Virus record (IMG/VR): IMGVR_UViG_3300027868_000427 | Location: 1-43,549 of that record | Reading direction: 5' to 3' (one strand) | Length of the DNA: 43,549 bases | DNA from: a virus | Shown: positions 4,677 to 43,549 of the stretch, piece by piece | Layout of the letters: the number at the start of each line of letters is the position of its first letter | Position numbering within the stretch: the stretch's first letter is position 1 | Notes under the pieces: model-generated | Databases searched by the model: none | Told to the model about the DNA's origin: nothing | The model's input: only the letters and a program-made list of their open reading frames with translations | Translations under genes and position numbers: made by a program

Positions 4677-4682
4677 TTTTAA

Positions 4683-4772: not shown

Positions 4773-4773
4773 T

Positions 4774-4850
4774 GCGCCAGTAGTTCAGTTGGATAGAACA
4801 ACTGCCTTCTAAGCAGTGGGTCGCACGTTCGAGTCGTGCCTGGCGTACCA
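4774..4850 (+). tRNA. tRNA-Arg (anticodon UCU)
   Basis: A cloverleaf with acceptor GCGCCAG/CTGGCGT, discriminator A and encoded CCA. The anticodon arm ctgccTTCTAAgcag gives TCT, reading AGA/AGG. AGA is the main Arg codon of the giant Thr-X repeat gene at the right end of the window. Confidence 0.95.
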
Positions 4851-4864
4851 TTAAATAGTTTTTT

Positions 4865-4941
4865 GCCAGCTTAGCTCAGTCCGGCAGAGCAACGGTTTTG
4901 TAAACCGTCGGTCCTCGGTTCGAATCCGAGAGCTGGCTCCA
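4865..4941 (+). tRNA. tRNA-Thr (anticodon UGU)
   Basis: A cloverleaf with acceptor GCCAGCT/AGCTGGC, discriminator T and encoded CCA. The anticodon arm acggtTTTGTAAaccgt gives TGT, reading ACA. ACA is the commonest Thr codon in the giant Thr-rich ORF at 36885-43549. Confidence 0.95.
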
Positions 4942-26800: not shown

Positions 26801-27923
26801 CTAACCCTCCAATAATTTCTGTTTCATAAAAATTTGGAGTTGGAAAACTTCTTATATTATCTTCTTTTACAAACCCATTTACGTTAATTCTATATACACC
26901 ATTTGTGGCAGAATCAGAAACATATAGAGAGCTGTTAGATGATGCTGATCCGTTTAATCCAACAAAAGCTAACTCATTATTTACCCCAACACTAGACGTT
27001 ATATTAACAAATGTATAATCTGCGGATAACGAAGAGGATGTATTAGCGCTTAAAGCTGATATATGTTTATTACTAACACAGAAAAAAGATTTGTACCCTG
27101 ATAGTGTACCCTCTTCAACAGATAAAGAAGTAAGATAATTAAAATATTTTGACTCTACGGGGTCTCCACTAACATATTGAATATTTCTTGTATCACCATT
27201 AGGCCATAATTTAAATAAATTTGTGTTTTCTGAACCTTGTTGGTATTTTACTGCATCCGGGTTTGTGGCCAACAAACTTCCAAACGTGTTAAAAGATTGA
27301 CCACCAAAAAATAGACCACCGGGGGCAAATGTAGACAATTCAAATGCCGGCCAAGCGTTAAGACCACCATAAACATCGTTCCATCGATATGAATTAACTT
27401 GAAAATATGCACTTAATGCTTGTTGTGTTGCATATACTGCTAGAAAATCACCACCATATTCTCCTTTTGTTAAATCTATTGTTATTAGATCCCCTCTACG
27501 AGTTTCTGCTGAAGGGTTAATACCATAATAATCATACGCTACCGTATAAGTTTTATTATTTTCGTCTTCTACATAAAAATATGGCATTTGATCCAAATTT
27601 TCATTAGCGTGTGCTGTAACAGCTAAAGAGTAGGGGGTTAAATTTTTTAATATTATTTCTGTTTTTTGAGTAGCATATGTAGCTTTACCAATAAAACCTT
27701 CATATAATTTTGGAAGAGAGGGTTGAGCAATTTTAGATACAGAATATAGATACATTAAGTTTGATTGAAGCTTGTTAATGCTTGAATTAAAGTTATATCC
27801 ATTTACTAATTCATTAACCCCCAATAACACTTCATCTTTTGTATAGGGTAATTCTATTACAGAACTTAAACTTCTGTTGAACGTGTATCCGTAATCGGTA
27901 AATTCTGTTGAAATGTTTATCAT
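23802..27923 (-). CDS. Large virion structural/adhesin protein with propeller-like repeats, 1,373 aa
   Basis: The ATG at 27923 gives an ATGA overlap with the upstream gene; the longer frame begins only with TTG. Residues about 310-560 contain repeated beta-segments of the NHL/propeller kind (SSLYVSDSATNGVYRINVNG, DELYVYDQGNYCIKVYDKD, DNTMFVGTKQNIYKY). A central Cys-rich part (about 800-860: DCAEPPTIEEIVECDCF, DCMYSEETCLPPYD) probably carries disulfides or metal. Near 1150-1260 an Ig/CBM-like beta domain is suggested. The C-terminus is Pro/Lys/Glu-rich (EPEPEPKPGTDTP). No enzyme motif is visible. It is likely a tail or baseplate-associated adhesin. Confidence 0.6.
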   Translation of the reverse strand: MINISTEFTDYGYTFNRSLSSVIELPYTKDEVLLGVNELVNGYNFNSSINKLQSNLMYLYSVSKIAQPSLPKLYEGFIGKATYATQKTEIILKNLTPYSLAVTAHANENLDQMPYFYVEDENNKTYTVAYDYYGINPSAETRRGDLITIDLTKGEYGGDFLAVYATQQALSAYFQVNSYRWNDVYGGLNAWPAFELSTFAPGGLFFGGQSFNTFGSLLATNPDAVKYQQGSENTNLFKLWPNGDTRNIQYVSGDPVESKYFNYLTSLSVEEGTLSGYKSFFCVSNKHISALSANTSSSLSADYTFVNITSSVGVNNELAFVGLNGSASSNSSLYVSDSATNGVYRINVNGFVKEDNIRSFPTPNFYETEIIGGLGGVRDNYSFNNPKILQFYKDELYVYDQGNYCIKVYDKDLGFVRNIRKSAFTKNNPPATVKLIDDKFYWLTTSGVFHILDNKLNPISQKQLYNFENSEVFIDFVVNESDNTMFVGTKQNIYKYFFNNINYIGRFDLSKSNIRNININFMTLLDVEGVSKLFVYVRKNEYGAILVFSEANGYENLLSNYNFDVYGVDEIKVEKNEFVSNFSYNKSIIKLLGNNLQLKNFITNVVTVSLLRDGGINYDGVSYFTEDDLTVLDYEPTLDNYIGTNEIFSRSVANRVLEKIYDYQLLLVSLFKNKVTPPPSQVNILSPTLDALMLEDFPGNANGYYRLETGTAIQASLEENPDLSAVFHGHDVTGGDVNPLENLVDNRDIILLENSVLKQVPIEDPGLNDCAEPPTIEEIVECDCFVTPFTTDCMYSEETCLPPYDLIDLDGMYTETIVTETNLCQPGWFEPRYETEGDTEGERSGSAATQYIIGWNRISETQLASTRFNHDSVREVTINDRKYKINLETVSGGVSTNYIRNPDDPMFDETLIDLNITPYGWGRFQTYVEGDTNGPDLGSMSMGTTWVKEAIYFNQEQVELAGKCQEDNSDGNDFEVSVQTPEGRQAALGVSGFTWTNPNKEENTVQRNTRDIIHKLDTSKQFGVLAYLSLNEDAVNYFGNVTSIGRKSFDTLNLNNQHRVDDTVFMMWKVPVPERFIGSWDYVGIDVTHFYYNVNHNCISAAQKDFFVYFDFFTKPGPNNITPPQLTKEQLLDQFMNPELTVNNTYELIFSNLNPSNETIEVSSNKKQIKLYDSGSDSLDTTFTINSGDATFSADGNFITGNSSVTIELEWDDSPSTSGKAVDSITINGVTWTQSQAKTGKEEKDVVLQAGYSVEGNVYDVNGCILYTLVKPNLEITKRIAEPEPEPKPGTDTPVVNKGQSGGIIKPGVILDPQDVKDLQEQLEHDPDFDLSVIGVQNADGDGFINPFTGQSASQGKGEKKPEPLKIKKPFTP

Positions 27924-30900
27924 TCTATTTCCCAATCAACTTTATTTAACTTGGTGTTAGCAGGAATCACGTCTTTTATTTGTTCTATTATATTATTTGA
28001 TATATCTGCTTGTAAGCTTTCTTCTGTAATTCCTGTATCAAGTAATTTTACGTTGAATAAATTGCTCTTTCTTCCTGGTAGCTTAAACTTAAATGTTCTT
28101 TCTATATGTTCAATATAATTTCTTTTACCTGTAGGTAGTTCAAAATATAAATCCTCGATCTTATTTCTTGATCTTATTATATTAGCTACATCATACAAAT
28201 AAAGCGGCGTATTATATATGTAAAAATCTTTTATCTTAAAATTACCGTAATTATAATAATTTACATCTTGTAAATTTTCGTTAAGTTTATTATTACCATA
28301 ACTTGCTTCTGTTCCAATATAAAATATATTATCAAAAATGGTACCATAACTATATTTGGAATTTTGAAAAGCGTATGTATCAACAATTAACCCGTCTACA
28401 TAAAAGTTAAATAATCCTTTTGTTGTATCTAATGAAGTTGTAAAATTATGATAACCGGGACTAATATTAGAAAGAGGATAACTTAAAGTTGCTTCTTCAT
28501 ATGTCTGCACATTATATATGTTAGGTAATCTTAATTTAACATCTAGTGTATTACCTGCATTATAATTGTTTAAAACGTAATTATAGTTGTTTATATTTCT
28601 AAGTAAGCTAAAAGAAGTCGGGTCTTTTTTAATAACGTTAATTGTAGAACTACTTATCTCTGCAAAATTTGTTTTTGTTCTAGTTATAAAAGGAAGGCAA
28701 ACATCAGTTGATGGTGAACTTGAATTACAACTTAAACTAAAAATGGTTAGATAATCGTCTACCAATTCACCATTATACCATTCACTTATAAGATCTAAAT
28801 TTTTACCCCAAGTACCCTGATTTTTTGTTATATTAGAAAGAGGTACTGATAAATCACCTTTGTTTGCAGATAGCTCGGAAAATGTATCTGTTATGTTTAT
28901 ATCATATTGATCAATAACTGCAAATCTATCTTGATCAAAGATCGCATAAAATATTCCATTATTATCAAACGTATAGTCATTTAGAACCTCTACCTCAATT
29001 TTATCATTAAGGGTATTATCCGTAATATTAAAATATTTTAAAATCTTTTCTGCATAAAAATATACATCGTTGTTTACAAATTTAGGATTAAAACCAGACA
29101 ACAAACAAACCGTATTTTCTTGAACAGCAATACTATTGTAAACGTCGCCTAGTTTTTTAACCGTATAACTTAAGTCAGAACTATGTTTAAGTTCTAAACT
29201 AGTAGAATCTAATCTATACCAATCAGTACCGTTTAAAATGAAAACATATTTACCATAAGAATAAAAATTAACGATTTTAAAATTATTAATTTCACTAATA
29301 TATTTTTTCTCTAATTTTGTACCAATATAATTATATTTGCTAACATGAGCAGTAGAATCAAATACTAAAAATTCACCATTAGGTTCTAATTTTTGAACAT
29401 TTATAATAATGTTATCATGTTTTAAGGTTCTTAATAACGTTCCAAAAGAATTATAAATGTATATGTCTTTTAAGTCAAATGTTACGGTATGAGGAGTAAT
29501 TCTTCTGTAGTTAAATATACCATACCCTCTATTTGTATAATTACCAACTATTTGAGATCCAAAAGGCTTAGACCAATCATCATTAAACATTTCAAACGTA
29601 ACAGAAAAATTATCAAAAGTTGATACATCGTCTAAACTCTTATCCATTGCTTTAGCAAAATAATTACCATCAAAAGATATTTCATTTATAAAATCTTGTT
29701 TAATATAAAATTTATCAAAATATCTTTCAAAATTGTCAAATATAATATTACTTGATAACCCGTTGACAAAAGACTCGCTATTTTCGTTTCCAATATGATG
29801 ATATGCGTATAAAGCCCCCTCTTCAAAAGTTAAGTTGCTTATTGTATCATACATATCATAGTCTTGATTATCAAACCCTACATTAGAACTAATTTGGTCA
29901 AAATTAGTATTTGGGAATAAATCTGTTGAACTTTCTGTTAAAGCATCATAATAAGACACGTTAGCAGGATTATAATATCTATCAACCCATAACCCTGGCA
30001 TATTAGGATCATCACCACCTGACAACCACGTACACAAATAAGCTCCTGTCTGCGTGTCAGATACATTACCAAACGGAGAACTAGATAAGTAGTCATTTAA
30101 TGTTTTAAAAATTTTATCTGAATAGTAAGGGGTATCACTAGGTATTGCTCCTGATATCACCAAGGAAGAATCATTAACGTTTAATTGTTGGTAAGGGTAT
30201 ATATTAAAAGGTATATGGAAATAGTTTAAACTATCCTTATATAGGATTTTTGAAATTGTGTAACCAGCATAACCTAGCCCGATATTATAATTACCCTTTT
30301 CTTGATTTACCCCGGTAAAAAGAGAATCATAATATCTATGTTTAAAAGCTGGTTCATTAATAAAAACACCACCTTCAGACTGTTCATTGTTTACGGTCTT
30401 TTCATTTTTAAGATTAATCAGATTAAGATTTAAATTTGCTTCTTTATATGGTTTAATAGAATAGAATTCATTATTGAATAAGAAGTTAGAATTGTAATCC
30501 GCAGTACTTTTTAGTGTATCGACTTGAAGTTGTGTTTTGTCTAAAGATTGTTTGTAAACATAATTTGAACTAGAAAGGGTATTTTGTAACGTATAGTAGT
30601 CTTTTCTTAGTCTGAATACGTTTTTATATCTGAAAGGAGTAATTGATATTGTTGATAATGCATTCCTAAAAGAAAGTAAATCATTGGCTTGATCATAATA
30701 CAAATAGTTTACTTTGTCATAAAGCTTTTTATAGAAAACAATTTGTTGATTTTCTTTATCATAAACGTAACTAAATTCACTTATATTTTCATTTTTACTT
30801 GATAGAAAAACAAATTTACTACTTACATAATCAAATCCCAAATATCTCTTTACATTATATGAATTCGATATATAGCACGTTTCATTATCAAAATTAAATT

Positions 30901-31285
30901 CTACTAAAAAGTAAGAATTATCAGATAAAGAATCAGTAAATGTAACATTTGCTGAATTTTTGCAAGTTGAACACAAATCGCTACCAACTGCTAAATATGT
31001 AGCAGGAGTTTCTGATACCATTATAAACGTTACGAATTTATAATCTTCTGGTACTTCCAGTTTATCTAAAGTAAGAATGTTCCTGTATTTGTTGCTGTTA
31101 GATAAGTAAAAGTTTGAATATTTGTTAGTCGAGGTATCTTTAGTTGCAGATAAGCATGTATCTAGTGTTAGATCTATTCCATGATAACTTGATTTCGAGC
31201 TTTTTAAAAAGTTAACTTGCTGGTCTAGATCATAATTAGCACTTAAACTGACTAAGTTATTGCTGGTAAGTACCTTAACATCCAT
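27920..31285 (-). CDS. Large virion structural protein with laminin-G-like region, 1,121 aa
   Basis: A beta-rich, Tyr/Asn/Ser-rich protein. Residues roughly 930-1055 have a LamG/concanavalin-like pattern: SPGYHNFTTSLDTTKGLFNF, YVDGLIVDTYAFQN, DNIFYIGTEASYG, then FKIKDFYIYNTPLYLYDVANI. That is the usual order of 'w-h-va...dg..lyvDG', 'l.iG' and 'gxid-d-v-iyn-al'. The preceding region contains propeller-like strands (FLVFDSTAHVSKYN and similar). It shares composition with the 1,373-aa protein and overlaps it (ATGA). An ATTAAATA box lies six bases before the ATG. It is probably a long tail-fibre or adhesin component that binds host glycans. Confidence 0.6.
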   Translation of the reverse strand: MDVKVLTSNNLVSLSANYDLDQQVNFLKSSKSSYHGIDLTLDTCLSATKDTSTNKYSNFYLSNSNKYRNILTLDKLEVPEDYKFVTFIMVSETPATYLAVGSDLCSTCKNSANVTFTDSLSDNSYFLVEFNFDNETCYISNSYNVKRYLGFDYVSSKFVFLSSKNENISEFSYVYDKENQQIVFYKKLYDKVNYLYYDQANDLLSFRNALSTISITPFRYKNVFRLRKDYYTLQNTLSSSNYVYKQSLDKTQLQVDTLKSTADYNSNFLFNNEFYSIKPYKEANLNLNLINLKNEKTVNNEQSEGGVFINEPAFKHRYYDSLFTGVNQEKGNYNIGLGYAGYTISKILYKDSLNYFHIPFNIYPYQQLNVNDSSLVISGAIPSDTPYYSDKIFKTLNDYLSSSPFGNVSDTQTGAYLCTWLSGGDDPNMPGLWVDRYYNPANVSYYDALTESSTDLFPNTNFDQISSNVGFDNQDYDMYDTISNLTFEEGALYAYHHIGNENSESFVNGLSSNIIFDNFERYFDKFYIKQDFINEISFDGNYFAKAMDKSLDDVSTFDNFSVTFEMFNDDWSKPFGSQIVGNYTNRGYGIFNYRRITPHTVTFDLKDIYIYNSFGTLLRTLKHDNIIINVQKLEPNGEFLVFDSTAHVSKYNYIGTKLEKKYISEINNFKIVNFYSYGKYVFILNGTDWYRLDSTSLELKHSSDLSYTVKKLGDVYNSIAVQENTVCLLSGFNPKFVNNDVYFYAEKILKYFNITDNTLNDKIEVEVLNDYTFDNNGIFYAIFDQDRFAVIDQYDINITDTFSELSANKGDLSVPLSNITKNQGTWGKNLDLISEWYNGELVDDYLTIFSLSCNSSSPSTDVCLPFITRTKTNFAEISSSTINVIKKDPTSFSLLRNINNYNYVLNNYNAGNTLDVKLRLPNIYNVQTYEEATLSYPLSNISPGYHNFTTSLDTTKGLFNFYVDGLIVDTYAFQNSKYSYGTIFDNIFYIGTEASYGNNKLNENLQDVNYYNYGNFKIKDFYIYNTPLYLYDVANIIRSRNKIEDLYFELPTGKRNYIEHIERTFKFKLPGRKSNLFNVKLLDTGITEESLQADISNNIIEQIKDVIPANTKLNKVDWEIE

Positions 31286-31312: not shown

Positions 31313-33928
31313 TTAGTTTTCTCTTCTTTCAGATGCTTCGTAGTAATCGAACCTTTCGTGGAAACAAGGCGTTGCCAGCAAAATTGCAGGATTTATGTTG
31401 CCTTTAACGGTTTCTTGAAAAATATATGACATCCAAGTTTGTTCGAAGGGGGCTGCCCATGTTTCATCAAGAAACATTTTTTTGTTTCCTTCTCGTGATA
31501 CAATTTGTGGCCAATTACAATAAAAGATCTCTCCATCTGCATACGCTAACCCCTTTTCATTTTTAATTGATTTAAAATTTGTTAAAGGTGCATTAGGATC
31601 TAATCCATTTGCTGGTAAAAATTTCTTTTCAGGCCAATGCCGTTCTCTTAATTCTTGAGGTACATTATACCAAGCCCATTGAACCCTGTTATCACCAAAG
31701 AATTCAGTAAAGCAAAACTTAAGAAAATCGTAACCTTCTCTTTCCATAATGGTATGTGTTTTATCATATAAGTCTTTAATATAAGTAGCAAATCCATTTG
31801 GACAAGTGCCTTTCCAATCAGTATGAATGTACATATCGTCTTCTAAAAAGATATAATAGTCACCATCTGTTTGTTCAAAATGTTCTGCTACCCATTGACG
31901 ACCTCCGCAAATACCAATATTGTCTTTTTTAATTTGAGTAAAGTCCCAAGTTTCACATACCCTATCATATTCTGCTTGAGTGGATTCGTCAGTAGAATTG
32001 TTCAATACAACCTTTTTAGTATTATATAAAAACTTTTCTCTTTCTGCCCAATTCTCGCAAAGCTTTTCAAACTGTGAAGGAGAATTATAGGTAATAACAT
32101 AAAGGTATGTTTTAAGTTCGTCTATAGATCTTATTTTCTTAGTAGTGATTAAATCTACAGTATCGTTTTTTAGATTCTCAAAAAAGCATTCAATTAACCC
32201 ATCATCTCTTATCATTACACGATCAATTATATCGTCGTGCTTATACGATAAAATGGTGAATATTGATTCTTCTGTCCCCATTTGTTCTTCATCCAAAGTA
32301 GCTTTTAAGTAGTCGTAATACAAACTATTAACATCGCTAATATAGTCTTTGTGTCCACCAAATATACCAGCTCTTGCAACAAATGTTGTTTTATCGACAT
32401 TACAATACTCTCTTAATCTATCATGATCAAATCCGTGAATTTCATGATTCTCATAAGGGAAACATATAAACAAAAACTTTTGCAAGTAATGATGAATTTT
32501 GTTTATTACTTTATCGTGGGTAAAATACCCTTGATGTATTGTATTAGTTATGGCGCCATCAACCCATAAAAAATAATCTGTATCAAAAGGGTTAGATATT
32601 CTTGCATCATTTAGCATAAACATCTTAGACATTACCATAGGATTATAAAGCTCTAACCCAGCTTGAGTACTTTCGGGGAGCCAGGATGCTTTGTTATACC
32701 ATTCCGGGTTAGAGCGAATCTTTTGAACTTGATCGAAAAATTCGAACCAAGTTTTAAATTCTTCTGCAGGTTTTACTATAACCTGAGTGTTTTCTGGAGA
32801 ACGATGTTCCCACACTAATTCTTCATACTCCGGGTCTATATAAACAATCATCGGAGTATCTGTTTTTAAAAGTTCTATTAATTTATCTGTATAATGAGAG
32901 AACGGTCTATTAAAACTCTCCGCTAAGGTATCCCTCTTTAAATCCCAAATACCAGTTACTATAGTAGTCTTGCTCGGGCCTTCATTAGAGTAAACCTGAG
33001 CTGGCTTCTCCGGTACGTTATCGATTTGATATGCTTCTGGTTCAGGTTCTTTGTAATCATCATCCCCTGATTCAACATTTTCTGGGACATCTACATAATT
33101 ACCGTCTTTATCTAATCTATACCCGGTATTTTCTATACATAAACCTAGCTTTTCTACTTCTGGCCACCTTCTATTATTTTTAATAAACTCTAAATGTTCA
33201 TTTTCAAAAGCCATTATATCACAACCCTCTTGATTGCATAAAGTATAACCAGATGTTATCAGTCTTGTAAATAATTTGTCAAGGTTACCATCTTCACTAT
33301 TAAACAATTCAAACTTTATAACTTTAGGTCTGTACTTTTCTAAATCAAATCCTTCAAATACCCAATAGTCGTGTCCTTCAGTGTCAACTGTAACATAATC
33401 AATTCTTTCTATGTTATGTTTTTCTAGTAAACTATTCAAAACAACAACCGGTACTTCACACATTTCACCATGTTCATCTAAAAGTGCTTTACTTTTAGGA
33501 TCAGAATCAAACCCATTAACCGGAGGAATAAAACTAGCCATTCCTTTTAAAGGGTAATCTAATTCTAAATTGTCAATTTTATCCCATGGAATATAGCACA
33601 TGGTTTCAACTTTCATTTCGTTAGATACTGCTACATTCTCTAATATAACTTTATCGTTTTTTAATACCTCTGTATAATAGTTTGATAACGCTTTAAATGC
33701 ATCCGGTAAGGGTTCAATAAACAACCCGCCCCATCTATATAGCGATATATAGCCAGCCATAGTGTCATGAAAATGACCATCCATTGCACCAACAGAAAGA
33801 CAAAAAACTTCATTATCTTTTTTTCTTCCAGCATTATGAAGAGAAATATCAAACATTCTCTCTACTTGCCAAGTGTTATATGGTGTTAATTTTTCTTGTA
33901 ATTTGTTATCTAGTTCTCTATCACTCAT
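31313..33928 (-). CDS. Three-domain glycan enzyme: FkbM methyltransferase + HtrL-like GT + GT-A glycosyltransferase
   Basis: A fusion of three activities. Residues 40-245 are FkbM-like: LSVGAMDGHFHD (44-55), FIEPLPDAF (70-78), VDTEGHDYWVFEG (181-193). After an acidic linker (about 280-315), residues 320-590 are HtrL/WlaTC-like: TTIVTGIWDL, YNPMVMSKMFML (428-439), FLWVDGAI (453-460), related to the gene at 723. Residues about 595-865 are a GT-A domain: YLYVITYNSPSQF, then YYIFLEDDMYIHTDW with the acidic metal motif. The start at 33928 gives an 8-bp overlap (ATGAGTGA) with the upstream GT60-like gene; an ATG 15 bp earlier is possible. It follows the two GT60-like genes, so it probably extends and methylates the same glycan. 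Confidence 0.8.
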   Translation of the reverse strand: MSDRELDNKLQEKLTPYNTWQVERMFDISLHNAGRKKDNEVFCLSVGAMDGHFHDTMAGYISLYRWGGLFIEPLPDAFKALSNYYTEVLKNDKVILENVAVSNEMKVETMCYIPWDKIDNLELDYPLKGMASFIPPVNGFDSDPKSKALLDEHGEMCEVPVVVLNSLLEKHNIERIDYVTVDTEGHDYWVFEGFDLEKYRPKVIKFELFNSEDGNLDKLFTRLITSGYTLCNQEGCDIMAFENEHLEFIKNNRRWPEVEKLGLCIENTGYRLDKDGNYVDVPENVESGDDDYKEPEPEAYQIDNVPEKPAQVYSNEGPSKTTIVTGIWDLKRDTLAESFNRPFSHYTDKLIELLKTDTPMIVYIDPEYEELVWEHRSPENTQVIVKPAEEFKTWFEFFDQVQKIRSNPEWYNKASWLPESTQAGLELYNPMVMSKMFMLNDARISNPFDTDYFLWVDGAITNTIHQGYFTHDKVINKIHHYLQKFLFICFPYENHEIHGFDHDRLREYCNVDKTTFVARAGIFGGHKDYISDVNSLYYDYLKATLDEEQMGTEESIFTILSYKHDDIIDRVMIRDDGLIECFFENLKNDTVDLITTKKIRSIDELKTYLYVITYNSPSQFEKLCENWAEREKFLYNTKKVVLNNSTDESTQAEYDRVCETWDFTQIKKDNIGICGGRQWVAEHFEQTDGDYYIFLEDDMYIHTDWKGTCPNGFATYIKDLYDKTHTIMEREGYDFLKFCFTEFFGDNRVQWAWYNVPQELRERHWPEKKFLPANGLDPNAPLTNFKSIKNEKGLAYADGEIFYCNWPQIVSREGNKKMFLDETWAAPFEQTWMSYIFQETVKGNINPAILLATPCFHERFDYYEASERREN

Positions 33929-35279
33929 TATCAAAAATTCCATTTTCTACTTCATATTTCGATCTCGGGGTCCTTAAATCATTTGGACCTATCCTATCTA
34001 ACCAACCTTTACTTTTACTATGTGGTAATACTGCCCAAGATCTAGGCTCTTTGTCAGAGCAAAACTTTAAGAAAAAGCTTGCATTGTCTTTTGCTTTTTC
34101 TTCACCTAATCTCCATTCATTTAAATCTTCTCTATATATCTCTTCACCATCTTTATCGTGAGCTGTAACAGCCCAGAAATCACAATCTTCATGTTCTGGT
34201 GTTTTAATTTGATCACCTGATATCCAAATATCTACGCACCAATTTCTCCCGAAATCATTTAACCAATCTTCTTTAGTTGCATACATTTCAGGGTTGTCAA
34301 CGTAATTTGGTGTAGGTGGTTCTTGTCTTTGAGGCCAAGTATACTCCATAACCCCTCTTCTATCAAATTTAATTCCTGCATATCTTTCATAATCTTCTAA
34401 AGTTCTTTCTTGACCAAAACCAAACTTACCAAAATCTATAGAATCGGGGTCTGTATCATCCATACCAAACAAAGTTCTATTTCTAAAATGACATGCATTA
34501 TTAACTGAAATCCAACCTGCTGTTCCATCAGAATCTACATCATGATCTTCCCAATGTTTATCTCTTCCTTCTCTTGTATATTCATGCCAACAAATTGTTT
34601 TATGTGGGTGAAATAAATCGTAACCATGGGTAAATGCTCTTACTGCAATGCTAATTTCTTCACCATGAAAATAATAATCTGGATCATGCGGGACTTCTTC
34701 ACAAAATTTACCTAAAGTAAAACAAAAATGAGCTGAATAAAATCTTGATCTCATAGGCTCAACCCTGGTCATCCAATCTGGAATAGTAGAAGGTAAAAAG
34801 AAAATAGCTCCTTCAGGAATAAATCTATCATACTCCATAAACCATGGGTCTTTTTCTCTACCTTCTGGATCATTTGATGGTTTATAAGATGGTATATACG
34901 CTGTTAATAAAGGCTTTTCATGACCCTTTTTTTGTAATTGATTCATCATATCAATACAAAGCGTATCCCACCCAGGGGCAAATCTATGATGCGAATCTAA
35001 TTGTAAGGTATATGTTTCACCATCATACTCATTTTGTACAATATTTCTAGCCCAACACACTCCTTTAGCTTCTTTCCAAGGTACATTAACCACTCTAAAT
35101 CTAGCATCATTTTCATACTCTGGTATATCATCAAATAGATCTCCTTCTTTAAATTGTCTACATATACCAAATCTTAAATTTTCTGGTTTATGAGCATTAT
35201 CTATACAACTCTTTAAAGTAATAGGGAGTTCTGGGTCTCTATACGAGGCAATTTGAATAAAAATAGTTTCGTCTTTCAT
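33921..35279 (-). CDS. GT60-like polypeptide GlcNAc-transferase homologue (PF11397), 452 aa
   Basis: Resembles the 'Glycosyltransferase (GlcNAc)' family, whose characterised eukaryotic members attach GlcNAc to protein Thr or hydroxyproline. Landmarks in order: IFIQIASYRDPEL (residues 6-18), GVCWARNIVQNEYDGE (73-88), LQLDSHHRFAPGWD (92-105) with the D-x-H metal/nucleotide motif, FYSAHFCFTLGKFCEEVPHDP (180-200, split here by eye), FHGEEISIAVRAFTHGYD (204-221) and WHEYTREGR (231-239). The last 120 residues are an extra domain shared with the paralogue upstream. An SD-like AGGAT lies upstream. It is cotranscribed with the paralogue and the three-domain enzyme. Acceptor protein is inferred, not shown. 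Confidence 0.8.
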   Translation of the reverse strand: MKDETIFIQIASYRDPELPITLKSCIDNAHKPENLRFGICRQFKEGDLFDDIPEYENDARFRVVNVPWKEAKGVCWARNIVQNEYDGETYTLQLDSHHRFAPGWDTLCIDMMNQLQKKGHEKPLLTAYIPSYKPSNDPEGREKDPWFMEYDRFIPEGAIFFLPSTIPDWMTRVEPMRSRFYSAHFCFTLGKFCEEVPHDPDYYFHGEEISIAVRAFTHGYDLFHPHKTICWHEYTREGRDKHWEDHDVDSDGTAGWISVNNACHFRNRTLFGMDDTDPDSIDFGKFGFGQERTLEDYERYAGIKFDRRGVMEYTWPQRQEPPTPNYVDNPEMYATKEDWLNDFGRNWCVDIWISGDQIKTPEHEDCDFWAVTAHDKDGEEIYREDLNEWRLGEEKAKDNASFFLKFCSDKEPRSWAVLPHSKSKGWLDRIGPNDLRTPRSKYEVENGIFDNE

Positions 35280-35301: not shown

Positions 35302-36846
35302 TTACTTCAAGTTTGGATCCAGCTGTTTCTCAATCTTATCCAGCCACCCTACATCTTTAATGCTCGGTATAACTGTATAACTTGTAGGTCTTGCATCGCA
35401 AACCAAACCTATTGGGAATCTTGCAGCATGTGGATCTTGTCTCTCGTCGTAAATTTCTTGAATCTTATCTATAGAAAAATCTTCTCTTACTAGTTCGTTT
35501 CCATCTTCGTCATGAACACCAACATACCAAAATTCAGTATCATCATATGATTCGGGTAATTCATCCCAAGGAATAAAAAAGTCAATACACCAATTTTTTA
35601 ACCATTTAACATCTTCATAAGGCGTTCCGTCATTTGGATATACCGGGTTAACACCGTCTTTTACTTCTTGAGTAATAGCTCTTTTTCTAAAATGAATACC
35701 CGAATAGTGTTGATATTCTTCTACTGTTCTAACATCCCCGAAACCATATTCATCACCAAAATTTATTTGATTAGGATCTTCACCATCCATACCAAATAAA
35801 ATTCGATTTCTTTTATGGCACATTTCATTTACTTCCCACCAATCGTGTTGACGACCTTGTTTTTTGTTACAATCATCCCAATGATGAGGTCTTCCTTTAC
35901 GGGTATATTCATGATAAGCAATTATTTTGTTAGGGTGAAATAAATCATAACCATGTGTAAATGCTCTTACTGCAATGCTAATTTCTTCTCCGTGGAAATA
36001 ATAATTAGGATCATGAGGTACTTCTTTACAAAACTGACCACTTGTAAAACAGAAATGAGCGGAATAAAATCTAGAAGGAATTGGTTCTCTTAATTCTTTA
36101 TCAAACATAGAAGTAGGTAAAAAGAAAATAGCTCCTTCAGGAATAAATCTATCAAATACCATCTTCCACGGGTCTGTTTCGAATCCATTTTCCATAGAAT
36201 ACTCACCAGAATCATCACTATTTTCTAACCAAGGCTTATAACTTGTTATATATCCTGTTAATAGGGGTTTCGGGTGACCTTTTTGTTGCAAGTAATAATA
36301 CATGCTTTTCAATTTAGAATCCCAACCAGGAACAAATCGATGGTGAGAATCAATTGCTAAAGTAAATTCTTCTTCACAATACAAATGTTGAATAGAATGC
36401 CTTGCCCAACACGTACCATGGCCTCTTTTATTATCTACGTCAATAATTTGGAATCTTTCATCCTTCATATAATCGTACATTTCTTTATCAAAATCATCTT
36501 CCATGTTATGTTGCCAGCAAATACCAAATCTTAAATTTTCAGGGTTATCTGCATTATCTATCATACTAACTAAAGTTGGGATGAGTTCTGGGTCTCTATA
36601 TGCAGCAATTTGAATGAATATTTGTTGATTACCTTTTAAATGGGAGGGGAAGTCTTCATGATAATTATCGCCTACAATATCTTCGTTTGTTAGAACATAT
36701 GGTTGTGGATCATTTTCTGGTATTGAAACTACCCCTGAACTTCTTTCATGTTCAGAATGATCTACTTCTGATACTTCAGTGGTAGTTGTTTTTTCGGTAT
36801 TTTTATTTTTTAACCTACTCTTACGATAGATTTTTATTCCTGGCAT
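35302..36846 (-). CDS. GT60-like polypeptide GlcNAc-transferase homologue (PF11397), 514 aa
   Basis: A paralogue of the following gene with an extra ~75-residue N-terminus that is Lys/Arg-rich, then Glu/Ser-rich and probably disordered (KIYRKSRLKNKNTEK). The same catalytic landmarks follow: IFIQIAAYRDPEL, GTCWARHSIQHLYCEE, LAIDSHHRFVPGWD, FYSAHFCFTSGQFCKEVPHD, FHGEEISIAVRAFTHGYD and YHEYTRKGR. The ATG at 36846 is preferred over an upstream TTG in the same frame. A TTGAAC-N16-TAAAAT promoter lies seven bases before it. It is the first gene downstream of the Thr-X repeat protein, with only 38 bp between, making that protein the obvious candidate acceptor. Confidence 0.82.
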   Translation of the reverse strand: MPGIKIYRKSRLKNKNTEKTTTTEVSEVDHSEHERSSGVVSIPENDPQPYVLTNEDIVGDNYHEDFPSHLKGNQQIFIQIAAYRDPELIPTLVSMIDNADNPENLRFGICWQHNMEDDFDKEMYDYMKDERFQIIDVDNKRGHGTCWARHSIQHLYCEEEFTLAIDSHHRFVPGWDSKLKSMYYYLQQKGHPKPLLTGYITSYKPWLENSDDSGEYSMENGFETDPWKMVFDRFIPEGAIFFLPTSMFDKELREPIPSRFYSAHFCFTSGQFCKEVPHDPNYYFHGEEISIAVRAFTHGYDLFHPNKIIAYHEYTRKGRPHHWDDCNKKQGRQHDWWEVNEMCHKRNRILFGMDGEDPNQINFGDEYGFGDVRTVEEYQHYSGIHFRKRAITQEVKDGVNPVYPNDGTPYEDVKWLKNWCIDFFIPWDELPESYDDTEFWYVGVHDEDGNELVREDFSIDKIQEIYDERQDPHAARFPIGLVCDARPTSYTVIPSIKDVGWLDKIEKQLDPNLK

Positions 36847-36853
36847 CAAAAAT

Positions 36854-36884: not shown

Positions 36885-39800
36885 TTACGCGTAAGTCATG
36901 TTAATAGAATCTATACAAATATCTGCTTGATATGTATAAATTGTACTTCCAGATGTATAAAAGAAGGATATATATTGCTGTGTAGAAGTTGGGTTAGAAT
37001 ATGAAAAGGTTTTCTTAATCCAAGCAGAAGTACGATCCCCTTGTTGCTGACCTGTTAAGGTGGTGCCTGCTAAATATGTATATGCATTTATATGAGATGA
37101 ATGCCCAGCTGTAACTTCTAACGCACCTACATTACCTCCAAACATATAATACCAGAAACCACAAGTAACTGTTTTACCGCTTGGACAACTATTACTTCTC
37201 ATAATAATACCAAAAGATACACTAGGGTAGTTCGGTGATGATGTTTCGCAATAGATAAATCTATAACTACTGGAACTATTTTGAGTTCCAGATGTTGCCG
37301 TGGCACTTGAATCAACAACACCACCTGTTGAAACCCCGGTACCACCACTAGGTGTACTACCATAATCGCACTGAAAGCTTCTTGTTGTAGTTGTTTTAAA
37401 ACTAGAAGTAGATACCCGATATGCACCAGCATAATAATCTGTTGCTGGACCGGTTGTTGGTGTTTGTAATGAAACTGCTCCGGTTTGAGACGTTGTTGTA
37501 GGTGAATTGTTTACATTTTGAAATAATATAGTCGTGGCTGCTGCACCGCCGGCTGATGGCGATTTAGTAGGTGTTCTTGTTTTAGTAGGTGTTTTTGTTT
37601 TTGTTTTAGTACTCGTTGGTGTTCGTGTTTTACTTTGTGTAATTGATTTCGTTCTTGTAGGAGAACTCGTAGGAGTCCGCGTTTTACTTTGCGTTATAGA
37701 CTTCGTTCTTGTTGGTGTTTGTGTTCTAGTTTTAGTTTTAGTTGCTGTATATGTAGGTGTTCGTGTTTTACTTTGTGTAATAGATTTTGTCCTCGTAGGT
37801 GTTCGTGTTTTACTTTGTGTGATAGATTTCGTTCTTGTAGCGGTACGTGTACTACTTTGTGTAATAGATTTAGTTACTGTAGGTGTTCTGGTTTTAGTTT
37901 GTGTAATAGATTTTGTTCTCGTAGGTGATACTGTTTTGGTTTGTGTGATAGATTTCGTTCTGGTCTGTGTGATAGATTTAGTTCTAGTAGGCGAAACGGT
38001 TCTTGTTGGCGTTCTAGTTTTAGTTTTAGTTTGGGTAATAGATTTCGTTCTTGTAGGTGTTCTTGTTCTTGTAGGTGTTTGTGTTCTTGTTTTAGTTTGT
38101 GTAATTGATTTCGTTCTTGTAGGTGTTCTTGTTCTTGTAGGTGTTTGTGTTCTTGTTTTAGTTTTCGTTTTCGTTCTTGTATATGTAGGTGTTCTTGTTC
38201 TTGTAGGTGTTTGTGTTCTCGTTCTCGTATATGTAGGTGATTGTGTTCTGGAACGTGTAGGAGTTTGTGTTCTGGTTTTTGTTTTGGTCTTCGTATACGT
38301 AGGTGATTGCGTTCTTGTAGGTGTTTGTGTTCTAGTTCTTGTAGGTGTTTGTGTTCTTGTTTTTGTTCTTGTAGGAGTACGTGTTTTACTTTGTGTAATA
38401 GATTTCGTTCTCGTTGGTGTTCTGGTTTTAGTTTTCGTACTAGTAGGGGTTTGTGTTCTTGTACGAGTAGGTGATTGTGTTCTTGTCGGTGTTCGTGTTT
38501 TACTTTGTGTAATTGATTTTGTTCTTGTTGGTGTTCGTGTTTTACTTTGTGTAATAGATTTCGTTCTCGTTGGTGTTCTGGTTTTAGTTTTCGTACTAGT
38601 AGGGGTTTGTGTTCTTGTACGAGTAGGTGATTGTGTTCTTGTAGGTGTTTGTGTTCTAGTTCTTGTAGGTGTTTGTGTCCTCGTTTTGGTTTGTGAAGGT
38701 GTTCTCGTTCTCGTTGGTGTTTGTGTTCTAGTTTTGGTTCTAGTTCTAGTTGCTGTTTGTGAAGGTGTTCTCGTTCTCGTTGGTGTTCTCGTTCTCGTAG
38801 GTGTTTGTGTTCTTGTGCGAGTAGGTGATTGTGTTCTAGTAGGTGTTTGTGTTCTAGTTTTAGTTTGTGTAATTGATTTCGTTTTCGTAGGAGTAACGGT
38901 ACGTGTCGGTGTGCGTGTTTTTGTTTTGGTTTGTGTAATTGATTTCGTTCTTGTAGGTGTTTGTGTTCTAGTTTTAGTTTGTGTAATTGATTTCGTTCTT
39001 GTAGGTGTTCTTGTTCTTGTTCTCGTAGATGTAGATGTTTGGGTTTGTGTTGGTGTTTGTGTTCGTGTAGCTGTTTGAGTAGACGTTCTTGTATATGTTG
39101 GTGTTCTTGTTCTTGTAGGTGTCTGTGTTCTTGTTCTTGTTTTTGTAGGTGTTTGAGTTCTGGTTCTTGTATTTGTAGGTGTTTTTGTATTTGTAGATGT
39201 TTTAGTTTGTGTTGGTGTTTGTGTTCTCGTTGGTGTTTGTGTTCTAGTTCTTGTTTGAGTTGTGGTTCTGGTTTGTGTAGGTGTCTGTGTTCTGGTTCTT
39301 GTTCTTGTTCTTGTAGGTGTCTGTGTTCTGGTTTTTGTTTGTGTGGCTGTTCTTGTACTAGTCGGTGTTTGGGTTCTTGTTCTCGTAGCTGTTTGAGTTG
39401 GTGACTGTGTTGGTGTTTGTGTTCTCGTTCTTGTTTGTGAAGGTGTTCTAGATCTTGTAGGTGTTCTTGTTTTTGTTCTTGTATTTGTAGGTGTTTTTGT
39501 TTGTGTAGGTGTTTGTGTTCTCGTTCTCGTTCTAGTAGACGTTCTTGTATATGTTGGTGTTCTTGTTCTCGTAGCTGTTTGTGTTGGGGTCTGTGTTTGT
39601 GATGGTGTTCTAGATCGAGTAGGTGTTTGTGTTCTTGTTTTAGTTTGTGTAGATGTTTGTGTTTGAGATGGTGTCCGTGTTCTGGTTCTTGTTCTTGAAG
39701 GGGTGACCGTTTGTGTAGCTGTTCTTGTTCTCGTGGGTGTTTGTGTTCTCGTAGGTGTTTGTGTTCTAGTTTTTGTATTTGTAGTAGTTGATGTTTGTGT

Positions 39801-42800
39801 TGGTGTTTGTGTGCGTGTAGCTGTTTGTGTGGCTGTTCTTGTTTGTGTTGGTGTTTGTGTGCGTGTTTTAGTTTGTGTAATTGATTTAGTTACTGTAGGT
39901 GTAACCGTTTGTGTGGGTGTTTGCGTGCGTGTCCTAGTTTGTGTGGCTGTTTTAGTTTGTGTTGGTGTTCTTGTTCTTGTAGATGATTGTGTTGGTGTTT
40001 GTGTTTGAGATGGTGTCCGTGTTCTTGTTTTAGTTTCGGTAATTGATTTCGTTCTCGTTGGTGTTTGTGTAGCTGTTGGTGTTTGTGTTCTTGTTCTCGT
40101 AGATGTAGATGTTCTTGTCTGGGTTGGTGTTCTTGTTCTCGTAGCTGTTTGAGTTGTTGTTTGTGTGTTTGATGGTGTTCGAGTTCTAGTAGAATCGGGT
40201 GTATCCGTTCTGGTAATTGTTCTAGTACTTGTAGGTGTTTGGGTTCTCGTAGCTGTTTGTGTTGGTGTTTGTGTAGGTGTCTGTGTTCTTGTTTTTGTAT
40301 TTGTAGGTGTTCTTGTTTGTGTACGTGTTTGAGTTTGTGTAGCTGTTCTACTTTGTGTAGTTGTTTGTGTCGGGGTTTGTGTAGGTGTTTGTGTACTGGT
40401 TTTCGTTTTGGTTTGTGTTGGTGTTTGCGTACGTGTACTAGTTTGTGTAGCTGTTCTTGTACGAGTAGGTGTTTGTGTGCGTGTTTGAGTTTGTGATGGT
40501 GTACGGGTTATTGTTCTCGTGGGTGTTTGAGTTCTTGTTCTCGTGGGCGATTGTGTACGAGTCTGTGTTTGTGTAGCTGTTCTTGTTTGAGAAGGAGTTC
40601 TTGTTCTTGTAGGTGTTTGTGTACTGGTTTGAGTCTGGGTTGGTGTTCTTGTTCTCGTAGGCGTTTGCGTTCTTGTTTTTGTCTGTGTGCGTGTACGAGT
40701 CTGTGTTTGTGTAGGTGTCTGAGTCGGTGATACGGATCTAGTAGGTGTTTGTGTTCTGGTTTTAGTTTGTGATGAGGTTTTAGTGTTTGTAGGGGTTTGT
40801 GTTTGTGTAGGTGATTGCGTAATTGATTTAGTTACAGTAGGTGTAACAGTTTGCGATGATGTTCTTGTATTTGTAGGAGATTGCGTTCTCGTCTTTGTTT
40901 GTGTTGGTGTTCTTGTATTTGTAGGCGTTTGTGTGCGTGTCGGTGTTTGTGTACTAGTAGCTGTTTGTGTGGCTGTTCTTGTTCTCGTAGGTGTTTGGGT
41001 TCTCGTCTTAGTTTGGGTGGGGGTTTGAGTTCTTGTTTGAGTTATTGTTTGCGTGGGTGTTTGAGTTCTGGTTATTGTTTGTGTGGGTGTTTGAGTTCTG
41101 GTTTTTGTTTGTGTACGGGTTTTAGTGTTTGTAGGTGTTTGTGTTTGTGTGGGTGATTGTGTAATAGATTTAGTTACAGTAGGTGTAACAGTTTCCGTTG
41201 ATGTTCTAGTATATGTAGGTGATTGAGTTCTCGTCTTTGTTTGTGTTAATGTTCTTGTATTTGTGGGTGTTTGGGTTCTCGTAGGTGTTTGTGTACTAGT
41301 AGCTGTTTGTGATGGTGTTCTTGTACGAGTAGGTGTTTGAGTTCTTGTTTTTGTATTTGTAGCTGTTTTAGTTTGTGTAGGAGTTTGTGTCCTAGTTCTT
41401 GTTTGTGTAATTGATTTAGTTACTGTAGGTGTAACCGTTTGTGTGGGTGTTTGTGTTCTGGTTACTGTTTGCGAAGGTGTTCTTGTTCTCGTTTGTGTTG
41501 GTGTTTGAGTTCTGGTTTGTGTGGGTGTTTGAGTTCTGGTTCTGGTTTGAGTAGGTGTTCTTGTCTGTGTTGGTGTTTGTGTTTTAGTTCTCGTTCTCGT
41601 GGGTGTTTGTGTAGGTGTTTTAGTTTGTGTAGTAGTTGATGTTTGTGTCGGTGTTTGTGTGCGTGTAGCTGTTTGAGACGGTGTTACTGTTTGAGTAGGT
41701 GTTCTTGTTCTAGTTACTGTTTGTGATCTAGTCGGTGTTTGCGTTCTAGTCCTTGTTTGTGTGGGTGTTCTAGTTATTGTTACGGTAGGTGTCTGTGTTT
41801 GGGTTTGTGTTTGAGTAGGTGTCTGGGTTCTGGTTTTAGTTTGTGTAGCTGTTCTAGTTTGGGTAGGTGTTTGTGTTTGAGTTGGTGTCTGTGTTCTGGT
41901 TTTTGTTTGTGTGGGTGTTCTAGTCTGTGTTTTTGTTCTTGTTGTTGTAGGGGTTTGTGTTCTCGTCCTTGTTTGTGTAGGAGTTCTAGTCTGAGTTTGT
42001 GTTTGTGTTTGAGAAGGTGTTCTCGTTTGTGTTGGTGTTCTGGTTCTAGTTGGTGTTTCAGTTCTTGTATTAGTAGGTGTTTGAGTAGGTGTTCTAGTTC
42101 TGGTTCTAGTAACTGTGCTAGTAGCAGTCCTACTTTGAGTAGGGGTTCTTGTTCTTGTAGGTGTTTGTGTACCGGTTTGAGTCTGGGTTGGTGTTCTTGT
42201 TCTCGTAGGCGTTTGCGTTCTTGTTTTTGTTTGTGTAGGCGTTTGTGTTTGTGTAGGTGTTTGGGATTGAGTAGGGGTTTGTGTCCTAGTTCTTGTTGAT
42301 GTACGTGTGTTAGTGGGTGTTTGTGTTCTAGTTTTAGTTTCTGTAGGTGTTCTTGTTTGTGTAGATGTTTGTGTTTGTGTAGGTGTTCTTGTTCTTGTAG
42401 GTGATTGTGTTCTAGTTTTGGTTTGTGTTCTGGTTCTAGTCTGTGTATTAGTTCTTGTATTAGTTTGTGTAGAAGTTTGAGTAGGAGTTTGTGTTCTGGT
42501 TTTAGTATTTGAAGGTGTTCTAGTTTGAGTAGGAGATTGTGTTTGGGTTGGCGTTTGTGTTTGAGTTGGCGACTGCGTCGGTGTTTGTGTTTGCGACGGT
42601 GTTCTCGTTCTAGTTGGGGTTTGTGAACGTGTTTGAGTCTGTGTAAGTGTTCTTGTTTGTGTAGGCGTTTGTGTACGAGTACCTGTTTGTGTGTTCGTTG
42701 GAGATTGTGTTCTAGTTCTAGTTTGCGTCGATGTTCTAGTAGGTGTTCTCGTTTTCGTTTTTGTCTGAGTCGGTGTCTGAGTCGGTGATACGGATCTAGT

Positions 42801-43549
42801 CGGTGTTTGCGTTCTGGTTTGTGTTGGTGTTTGTGTAGATGTTTGAGTAGGTGATTGTGTTCTTGTAGGTGATTGTGTTGGTGTTCTTGTACGGGTAGGT
42901 GATTGTGTAATTGATTTTGTAACTGTTGGAGTTATTGTTTGTGTAGGTGTTTGTGTTCTGGTTCTAGTTAGAGTAGCTGTTCTTGTATTTGTTGGTGTTC
43001 TAGTTCTTGTAACAGTATTAGTTGGAGTTTGTGTTTGTGTTTGAGTTGGTGACTGTGTCGGTGTTTGTGTACGTGTTTTAGTTTGCGTCGGTGTTCTTGT
43101 AGATGTTTGAGTAGGAGTACGTGTTCTGGTTTTCGTCTTGGTTGCTGTAGCTGTTTGAGAAGGTGTTCGTGTTGGTGTAGATCCAGGCGTATCCGTTCTT
43201 GTTATAGTTCTGGTTTGTGTAGGTGTTTGTGTTCGTGTCGCTGTTTGAGATTGAGTAGGAGTTTGTGTTCTCGTTGTAGTTTGTGTAGGTGTCTGAGTTG
43301 GTGTTTGCGTTCTTGTTCTCGTAGGTGTTTGGGTTCTGGTTCTAGTTTGTGTTAATGTTTGTGTAGATGTTTGAGTAGGTGTTCTTGTTCTGGTAGGTGT
43401 TTGTGTACGTGTTTTAGTTTGAGTAATTGATTTTGTAACTGTTGGTGTTGTTGTTTGTGTAGGCGTTTGCGTTCTAGTTTTGGTCTGCGTTCTAGTTTGT
43501 GTTTGAGAAGCTGTTCTCGTTTGTGTAGCTGTTCTCGTTCTTGTAAGTG
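36885..43549 (-). CDS. Giant Thr-X repeat (mucin-like) protein with C-terminal MAM-like domain; N-terminus outside window
   Basis: One minus-strand frame is open from the right edge to TAA at 36885: at least 2,221 residues. I read it line by line for stops and found none. From about 37561 to the edge nearly every second residue is Thr (sometimes Ser); the others are mainly Pro, Arg, Gln and Lys (TRTQTPTRT, TKTRTPT), with periodic KSITQ(T/S)K blocks. After a short SPSAGGAAATT linker comes a non-repetitive C-terminal domain (about 37580-36888). It contains GSTPSGGTG, CETSS, a CGFWYYMFGGNVGALEV segment and WIKKTFSYS, ending DICIDSINMTYA. This is the order seen in MAM domains. It is probably a very long virion fibre or stalk with an adhesive tip, and its Thr density makes it a plausible O-glycan carrier for the adjacent GT60-like enzymes. 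Confidence 0.8.
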   Translation of the reverse strand, partial: LTRTRTATQTRTASQTQTRTQTKTRTQTPTQTTTPTVTKSITQTKTRTQTPTRTRTPTQTSTQTLTQTRTRTQTPTRTRTQTPTQTPTQTTTRTQTPTQSQTATRTQTPTQTRTITRTDTPGSTPTRTPSQTATATKTKTRTRTPTQTSTRTPTQTKTRTQTPTQSPTQTQTQTPTNTVTRTRTPTNTRTATLTRTRTQTPTQTITPTVTKSITQSPTRTRTPTQSPTRTQSPTQTSTQTPTQTRTQTPTRSVSPTQTPTQTKTKTRTPTRTSTQTRTRTQSPTNTQTGTRTQTPTQTRTLTQTQTRSQTPTRTRTPSQTQTPTQSPTQTQTPTQTQSPTQTRTPSNTKTRTQTPTQTSTQTNTRTNTQTRTRTQTKTRTQSPTRTRTPTQTQTSTQTRTPTETKTRTQTPTNTRTSTRTRTQTPTQSQTPTQTQTPTQTKTRTQTPTRTRTPTQTQTGTQTPTRTRTPTQSRTATSTVTRTRTRTPTQTPTNTRTETPTRTRTPTQTRTPSQTQTQTQTRTPTQTRTRTQTPTTTRTKTQTRTPTQTKTRTQTPTQTQTPTQTRTATQTKTRTQTPTQTQTQTQTPTVTITRTPTQTRTRTQTPTRSQTVTRTRTPTQTVTPSQTATRTQTPTQTSTTTQTKTPTQTPTRTRTKTQTPTQTRTPTQTRTRTQTPTQTRTQTPTQTRTRTPSQTVTRTQTPTQTVTPTVTKSITQTRTRTQTPTQTKTATNTKTRTQTPTRTRTPSQTATSTQTPTRTQTPTNTRTLTQTKTRTQSPTYTRTSTETVTPTVTKSITQSPTQTQTPTNTKTRTQTKTRTQTPTQTITRTQTPTQTITQTRTQTPTQTKTRTQTPTRTRTATQTATSTQTPTRTQTPTNTRTPTQTKTRTQSPTNTRTSSQTVTPTVTKSITQSPTQTQTPTNTKTSSQTKTRTQTPTRSVSPTQTPTQTQTRTRTQTKTRTQTPTRTRTPTQTQTSTQTPTRTRTPSQTRTATQTQTRTQSPTRTRTQTPTRTITRTPSQTQTRTQTPTRTRTATQTSTRTQTPTQTKTKTSTQTPTQTPTQTTTQSRTATQTQTRTQTRTPTNTKTRTQTPTQTPTQTATRTQTPTSTRTITRTDTPDSTRTRTPSNTQTTTQTATRTRTPTQTRTSTSTRTRTQTPTATQTPTRTKSITETKTRTRTPSQTQTPTQSSTRTRTPTQTKTATQTRTRTQTPTQTVTPTVTKSITQTKTRTQTPTQTRTATQTATRTQTPTQTSTTTNTKTRTQTPTRTQTPTRTRTATQTVTPSRTRTRTRTPSQTQTSTQTKTRTQTPTRSRTPSQTQTPTQTATRTRTPTYTRTSTRTRTRTQTPTQTKTPTNTRTKTRTPTRSRTPSQTRTRTQTPTQSPTQTATRTRTQTPTSTRTATQTKTRTQTPTRTRTRTRTQTPTQTRTTTQTRTRTQTPTRTQTPTQTKTSTNTKTPTNTRTRTQTPTKTRTRTQTPTRTRTPTYTRTSTQTATRTQTPTQTQTSTSTRTRTRTPTRTKSITQTKTRTQTPTRTKSITQTKTKTRTPTRTVTPTKTKSITQTKTRTQTPTRTQSPTRTRTQTPTRTRTPTRTRTPSQTATRTRTKTRTQTPTRTRTPSQTKTRTQTPTRTRTQTPTRTQSPTRTRTQTPTSTKTKTRTPTRTKSITQSKTRTPTRTKSITQSKTRTPTRTQSPTRTRTQTPTSTKTKTRTPTRTKSITQSKTRTPTRTKTRTQTPTRTRTQTPTRTQSPTYTKTKTKTRTQTPTRSRTQSPTYTRTRTQTPTRTRTPTYTRTKTKTKTRTQTPTRTRTPTRTKSITQTKTRTQTPTRTRTPTRTKSITQTKTKTRTPTRTVSPTRTKSITQTRTKSITQTKTVSPTRTKSITQTKTRTPTVTKSITQSSTRTATRTKSITQSKTRTPTRTKSITQSKTRTPTYTATKTKTRTQTPTRTKSITQSKTRTPTSSPTRTKSITQSKTRTPTSTKTKTKTPTKTRTPTKSPSAGGAAATTILFQNVNNSPTTTSQTGAVSLQTPTTGPATDYYAGAYRVSTSSFKTTTTRSFQCDYGSTPSGGTGVSTGGVVDSSATATSGTQNSSSSYRFIYCETSSPNYPSVSFGIIMRSNSCPSGKTVTCGFWYYMFGGNVGALEVTAGHSSHINAYTYLAGTTLTGQQQGDRTSAWIKKTFSYSNPTSTQQYISFFYTSGSTIYTYQADICIDSINMTYA
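36888..37382 (-). other. MAM-like adhesion domain (C-terminus of the giant protein)
   Basis: About 165 residues in MAM order: FQCDYGSTPSGGTG, SYRFIYCETSS, then RSNSCPSGKTVTCGFWYYMFGG followed by NVGALEV. The remainder is W-IKKTFSY and ADICIDSI(N)MT. In MAM domains the equivalents are the 'GSTPS-GTGP' entry, 'Y-yvE-S', 'C-L-FWYhMyG...GsL.V' and 'dIAiDdI.l'. Four Cys residues are present. The call is by motif order, without a profile search. Confidence 0.65.
37561..43549. repeat. ~6-kb degenerate tandem repeat, G/T-rich on plus strand, coding Thr-X on minus strand
   Basis: The basic unit is 6 bp (Thr codon plus variable codon), kept in one frame over the entire span. Thr codons vary freely (ACA, ACT, ACG, ACC), so the protein pattern is conserved better than the DNA. 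Larger duplicated blocks exist: 38380-38486 is identical to 38536-38642 (107 bp, offset 156). Blocks at about 40598-40681 and 42146-42229 are nearly identical (offset 1,548). A TRTITRTDTP block is repeated 2,988 bp apart (40191 and 43179). Confidence 0.9.

Follow-up and report, generated by a model that had tools for sequence, protein, structure and literature searches.

Glycosyltransferase families GT27 and GT60 have in common that they O-glycosylate serine and threonine in polypeptides, with a DxH motif replacing DxD (PMC7185993). Among GT60 members, the T. cruzi UDP-GlcNAc:polypeptide alpha-GlcNAc-transferase starts O-glycosylation on the threonines of mucins, and Skp1 Gnt1 belongs to the same family (PMC6939170; PMC3769586). 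In phages, glycosyltransferases modify DNA and capsid or tail proteins (PMC12619734), and mycobacteriophage virions are glycosylated by phage-encoded glycosyltransferases (cited in PMC12619734). The Xanthomonas phage XacN1 contains at least two glycoproteins according to proteomic analysis, which the main text does not name, and its own glycosyltransferases have been suggested as their makers; tail-fibre homologues were not found in this phage (PMC5852040). Our literature search, confined to open-licence papers and without preprints, found no report of mucin-like stalks or of MAM domains in phages.

The stretch of DNA considered here, hereafter the window, comprises positions 1-43,549 (one strand) of IMG/VR record IMGVR_UViG_3300027868_000427. 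It encodes a T4-like major capsid protein (gp23), a prohead protease and a head closure protein on the same strand as the fibre gene under study, so that its earlier labelling as phage DNA was justified; these genes mark the contig as part of a T4-like myovirus genome. The fibre gene is a minus-strand reading frame (36885-43547, stop codon at 36885-36887) of 2,220 codons plus stop, which is open at the contig end and hence has at least 2,220 codons. Read in its own direction, it specifies a Thr-X stalk of 1,995 residues (37563-43547, 5' end open at the contig end), a stalk-tip junction, SPSAGGA (37542-37562), where the last stalk residues are near letter-for-letter common to a homologue on an independent viral contig, L002, and a MAM domain (36888-37541, tip residues 8-225). 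Four further genes follow on the minus strand. The first, GT60a (35302-36849), starts 35 bp after the fibre stop codon and carries an N-terminal extension; the second is GT60b (33921-35279); the third is a fusion of FkbM methyltransferase, HtrL/YibB-like and GT2-like parts (31313-33943); and the last gene of this conserved block encodes a large conserved protein of 1,121 aa without a family match (27920-31285), which, as inferred from gene position, is probably structural. Long plus-strand frames (for example 37534-39078) read as repetitive VLVGV, the antisense of the stalk, and were rejected as genes.

The reading we favour, and hold to be likely, is that this locus encodes a long mucin-like fibre of a T4-like phage, which is glycosylated by the phage and bears exchangeable jelly-roll tips; its glycosylation, virion location and ligand are inferred. 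We envision that GT60a and GT60b would add sugar post-translationally to many of the roughly 1,000 stalk threonines and serines, most likely as alpha-linked GlcNAc (donor and acceptor both being inferred), and that the downstream fusion, for which such activities are possible, would extend or methylate the glycan. Crowded glycans might keep the chain stiff, extended and protected from proteases, and the stalk would hold the MAM tip away from the particle, where its ligand could be a surface protein or glycan of the host; the choice of target would lie with the tip, which would be swappable (MAM, LamG and others). In short, the virus probably makes a sugar-coated, mucin-like fibre of its own, the sugar coat being an inference.

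Along stalk residues 1-1,995, threonine or serine alternates with another residue so regularly that 995 of the 997 Thr-phase positions are T or S, with two exceptions; the earlier note had spoken of a Thr-X stalk, and the pattern is stricter than it had described. The other positions are mainly R, Q, P and K, giving a net charge of about +365, and with 916 Thr, 123 Ser and 195 Pro in 1,995 residues the stalk meets the mucin-like criterion of a long Thr/Ser/Pro-rich repeat region. Thr is written with each of its four codons and just 15% of 24-mers recur, so the alternation is held by selection on the protein; the same codon diversity and low repetition led us to reject the stalk as a recent product of DNA slippage. 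ACA and AGA account for 28% and 11% of stalk codons versus 2.9% and 2.2% elsewhere. The window contains three tRNA genes (4590-4941; Leu-TAA, Arg-TCT and Thr-TGT), of which the plus-strand tRNA-Thr (4865-4941, anticodon TGT) reads ACA, the commonest stalk codon, and the plus-strand tRNA-Arg (4774-4850, anticodon TCT) decodes AGA, the stalk's main codon for Arg. An inferred link between these two tRNAs and stalk translation is suggestive only; tRNA-Thr and tRNA-Arg genes are common in T4-like phages, and neither was present in 11 related loci that were scanned, most of them short stretches. A mucin-like chain measures about 0.25 nm per residue, and one of the stalk's length could span several hundred nanometres. 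That the tip occupies the free end of the fibre is inferred, the N-terminus lying beyond the contig end.

How might such a stalk become glycosylated? Both neighbouring enzymes match PF11397, which we take to be family GT60, far above its cut-off (232 and 245 bits versus 21; E 1.8e-68 for GT60a, which is also a phrog_24687 glycosyltransferase, and 2.8e-72 for GT60b). Their DSH motifs lie at 36343-36351 (GT60a) and 34989-34997 (GT60b), and DxH is present in 8/8 aligned and 84/84 scanned phage enzymes, in the 84 always as DSH. Since a sequence search with the glycosyltransferase alignment against PDB chains returned nothing, we turned to the fold. With the AlphaFold (AF2) model of GT60b (pLDDT 88, pTM 0.86) as query, the first 41 Foldseek and the first 29 VIA entries in the PDB were all polypeptide GalNAc-transferases (VIA Z 19.7-23.0; next entry 17.0). 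The predicted fold of GT60b is thus closest to mucin-type polypeptide O-glycosyltransferases, the fold alone being no proof of the acceptor. An echo of eukaryotic mucin-type adhesins had been remarked upon from the domain combination alone; adjacent GT60-type genes and a fold matching mucin O-glycosyltransferases make that echo stronger.

Elsewhere in the window, an RmlA-like sugar nucleotidyltransferase gene is followed by a heptose-kinase-like gene (2575-4244), and these are possible sources of sugar for glycosylation. Two sulfotransferase-like genes (14219-14941 and 20031-20807) were also seen, one matching Pfam below threshold and the other recognised only by eye; given these, and a similar gene directly before the GT60 pair in the viral locus L037, the glycan might be sulfated. 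A QueF-type nitrile reductase of the 7-deazaguanine pathway (13309-14217) is a further observation in this T4-like phage.

The association between stalk and enzyme extends beyond this contig. We fetched 80 viral loci with a PF11397 enzyme, of which 65 remained after removal of duplicates, and used simple gene calling with thresholds of our own setting. In 44/80 fetched loci a strict T-X frame, 30 residues or longer, was found near the enzyme. A Thr-rich stalk gene stood immediately upstream of the enzyme in 22 of 63 loci as compared with 37 of 913 other genes (odds ratio 12.7, p 2e-13), immediately downstream in 1 of 65, and among genes around gp23 in 4 of 906. The excess persisted when enzymes were collapsed at 70% identity (9/24 versus 15/370, p 2e-6), and at 60% identity only five clusters were left and the test was without power. 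It is because Thr-rich genes adjoin the PF11397 enzyme that we infer dense O-glycosylation of the stalk. In the cultured phage XacN1, the PF11397 enzyme is ORF334, and in the stretch examined a T/P-rich stalk protein with a LamG-like domain recognised by eye (ORF350, L006:959-2923) adjoins an annotated structural protein about 12 kb from it. This distance speaks against the reading, as does the lack of a PF11397 match in many viral T-X contigs (L009-L018), though these are fragments; four of them (L010, L012, L017 and L018) carry two to four tandem Thr-X stalk genes with differing short N-termini and unassigned tips.

Alternatively, the fibre may bear a MAM tip on a stalk that stays unglycosylated, its Pro- and Arg-rich sequence giving extension, while the GT60-type enzymes act on a capsid or tail protein, DNA or host surface polysaccharide. 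In 41 of the 63 enzyme loci no Thr-rich gene lies directly upstream, and the enzyme may therefore have other substrates; DNA and capsid or tail proteins are what known phage glycosyltransferases modify (PMC12619734), and in Stenotrophomonas phage RAS14 the enzyme is present with no comparable stalk seen nearby. This possibility keeps some weight, but we judge it unlikely, because the adjacency departs strongly from randomness and is particular to the gene upstream, and because both the fold and the DxH motif indicate Thr in a polypeptide as acceptor, and the stalk has about 1,000 Thr/Ser to offer.

The preferred reading, a phage-glycosylated fibre with exchangeable tips, also draws on a comparison of viral loci. 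The four-gene block downstream of the fibre is syntenic in L002, L003, L004 and L037, and the gene in front of it differs: in L002 it encodes a MAM-bearing stalk and in L004 a LamG-bearing one; in L003 it points the other way and encodes an Mtd_N protein, an occupant of the place before the enzymes that counts against the reading; and in L037 it is, by eye, a sulfotransferase-like gene, with a T-X frame some 10 kb upstream. Thus, a MAM tip and a LamG tip occur on the same stalk type before the same block. Among 28 stalk tips compared with Pfam, LamG was found in three and MAM in two, and most were without a family. In L037, a 2,070-residue protein of NTTGxxNTAxG repeats (L037:393-6605), the C-terminus of which resembles by eye a chaperone-type S74 peptidase, lies between the T-X frame and the GT60 block. 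Relative to L002, the block genes of the window are 84, 90, 88 and 79% identical, whereas the tip reaches only 44%, as expected of an exposed, fast-evolving part. This divergence, far faster than that of its neighbours, speaks against the MAM domain being a folding or oligomerisation cap at the fibre end and not a receptor binder. Such a role has a precedent in meprin beta, where MAM contributes to dimerisation (PMC9848320), and the roles of cap and binder are not exclusive; that LamG or other domains take the place of MAM on stalks of the same type is nevertheless more in keeping with exposed binding tips than with a conserved part of the assembly, and we find a cap distinctly improbable. Receptor binding by the tip remains an inference.

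Display of the fibre on the virion is probable and is supported by gene position only, as its N-terminus is off the contig. For the same reason neither a virion-docking part nor a signal peptide is visible, and the Bacteroidota proteins in which the closest MAM relatives were found are large, contain repeats and are probably secreted; it is conceivable, then, that the protein is no virion component, and that the infected cell releases it or carries it on its surface, for instance as a glycosylated coat against superinfection. We give this little credence, because the fibre gene lies upstream of head and neck genes on the same strand, and because complete stalk proteins of relatives start, as judged by eye, with large N-terminal domains and not with obvious signal peptides.

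The tip itself is a genuine MAM domain. The C-terminal 225 residues of the fibre protein (36888-37562, minus strand) match PF00629 with 27.9 bits (cut-off 26.4, E 2.5e-6) over tip residues 86-223 (36894-37307) and profile positions 29-153 of 158, and the homologous tip of L002 scores 32.0 bits; as both tips pass the Pfam cut-off, the assignment is above chance without any custom alignment. The MAM motif order that the earlier note had read from the letters is present on the minus strand, and the two checks it had proposed, a PF00629 profile search and a structure prediction, both came out in its favour. The AF2 model of the tip, built on a homologue-based alignment, has a mean pLDDT of 74 and a pTM of 0.77, with residues 130-225 mostly at about 90 (one block at 78) and residues 20-59 poor. 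Its best structural matches are solved MAM domains, namely those of SR-C (VIA Z 15.7), enteropeptidase (14.9) and meprin beta (14.3), with carbohydrate-binding modules next (Z 11-12). We conclude that the tip has a MAM-type beta-sandwich jelly roll, as predicted and not solved. The alignment behind the model was MAM-dominated, so the predicted fold depends on the family assignment in a way that the Pfam scores do not; the model supports compatibility with a MAM fold rather than standing as sole proof. The best viral structural match to the tip, at 24% identity, is BFVD A0A218ML01, a putative peptidase of an uncultured virus, and another viral MAM-like domain thus probably exists.

The domain was first delimited as 36888-37382. 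The start is too late, and only residues 61-225 are covered; the modelled first strand lies at residues 10-15 (about 37541-37517) and structural alignments start at about residue 8-10, so that 36888-37541 describes the domain better. Residues 20-59 of the model form an insertion predicted with low confidence. The tip holds five Cys, of which C65, C105 and C216 are common to L002, and Cys positions are not near-invariant across the phage and bacterial alignment; the MAM domain of meprin beta has two disulphides (PMC9848320). That the resemblance is a chance match of low-complexity Thr/Ser/Gly-rich sequence could be argued from the mere 1.5 bits by which the window tip clears the Pfam cut-off, but can hardly be maintained when the independent L002 homologue scores higher, a Bacteroidota-grown profile gives the tip 80 bits (though phage tips seeded it), 70 of 72 aligned members match PF00629 and MAM ranks first in the fold search.

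Where might a phage have obtained this domain? A scan of bacterial genomes with two phage tips gave 183 related stretches confirmed by tblastn, of which the best 80 were kept; these 80 are mostly from Bacteroidota, chiefly Flavobacteriales, with some from Calditrichaeota, Planctomycetota, Cloacimonadota and others. The profile of a 72-sequence alignment recognises the solved MAM domains of SR-C (3e-28), MDGA1 (1e-26) and neuropilin-1 (7e-22). MAM had been introduced as mainly an animal domain, which in this context does not hold: the closest relatives found are Bacteroidota proteins, and MAM was reported in marine bacteria already in 2007 (PMC1821046). The fold is best known from animal cell surfaces yet common in aquatic Bacteroidota. 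As the nearest relatives found are Bacteroidota surface proteins, bacteria and not animals are the likely source, and lateral gain from Bacteroidota is likely, with no tree behind this claim. Within viruses, a search of viral contigs with the tip alone gave no match and one with a two-tip alignment only L002 again, suggesting that, at the sensitivity reached, this collection contains few MAM-tipped stalks; of the phage loci examined, just 2 showed MAM. A search of 50,697 phage records found no match, nor was there any MAM match in 50 further PF11397-bearing contigs, where a built-in control was also silent and absence is unproven. A weak MAM match in S-SKS1 was dismissed because it runs across stop codons.

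Whether all this amounts to a widespread class of aquatic phages that make their own mucins, with stalks of up to about 1,000 Thr, co-encoded GT60-type O-glycosylation inside the bacterium by enzymes whose fold is related to that of animal mucin transferases, and lectin-like tips, MAM among them, that can be exchanged, is a proposition that we find evenly balanced. If true, viruses of bacteria would possess a complete mucin-type adhesin system; stalk and enzymes together suggest that mucin-type architecture and mucin-type glycosylation co-occur in phages. A phage glycosyltransferase family without a known target would gain a concrete, testable role, host-binding fibres overlooked by ordinary annotation could be recognised (as in XacN1, with no tail-fibre homologues reported), and enzymes that make mucin-like glycopolymers in bacterial cells could come from such phages.

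Among known systems, the tip shares with the MAM family (PF00629), and especially with Bacteroidota MAM repeats, the motif order FWYxM-G, GQQQ...W and D-I-x-D-S/D near the end, as well as the jelly-roll fold. It differs from the family in its long N-terminal insertion and from the Bacteroidota proteins in being a single domain that ends a Thr-X stalk, whereas the bacterial relatives often occur in multiple copies in large proteins. Taken alone, the MAM domain would give a known family a new and rare member, in a phage. With the characterised GT60 alpha-GlcNAc-transferases of protists (the T. cruzi mucin enzyme and Skp1 Gnt1), the phage enzymes share PF11397 and DxH, and their putative acceptor is likewise Thr-rich; unlike them, they form a tandem pair beside the putative acceptor gene and would act in a bacterial cell and not in the Golgi, their activity being inferred. 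GT27 polypeptide GalNAc-transferases are the closest solved folds to GT60b (Z up to 23), but at only 10-16% identity we do not claim GT27 membership. T4-like cyanophages such as S-SKS1 and S-PM2 encode LamG-bearing proteins, so that jelly-roll, lectin-like domains occur in T4-like phages too, although the S-SKS1 protein examined has no Thr-X stalk. XacN1 (PMC5852040) resembles the window system in that its enzyme is of the PF11397 family and its T/P stalk bears a LamG-like domain, whereas the mycobacteriophage glycans are on the C-termini of capsid and tail-tube subunits and not on a mucin-like stalk (PMC12619734). Set beside these, the larger system proposed here, in which a phage encodes both a mucin-like fibre and the mucin-type transferases that serve it, would add a new variant to the glycosylated virions already known.
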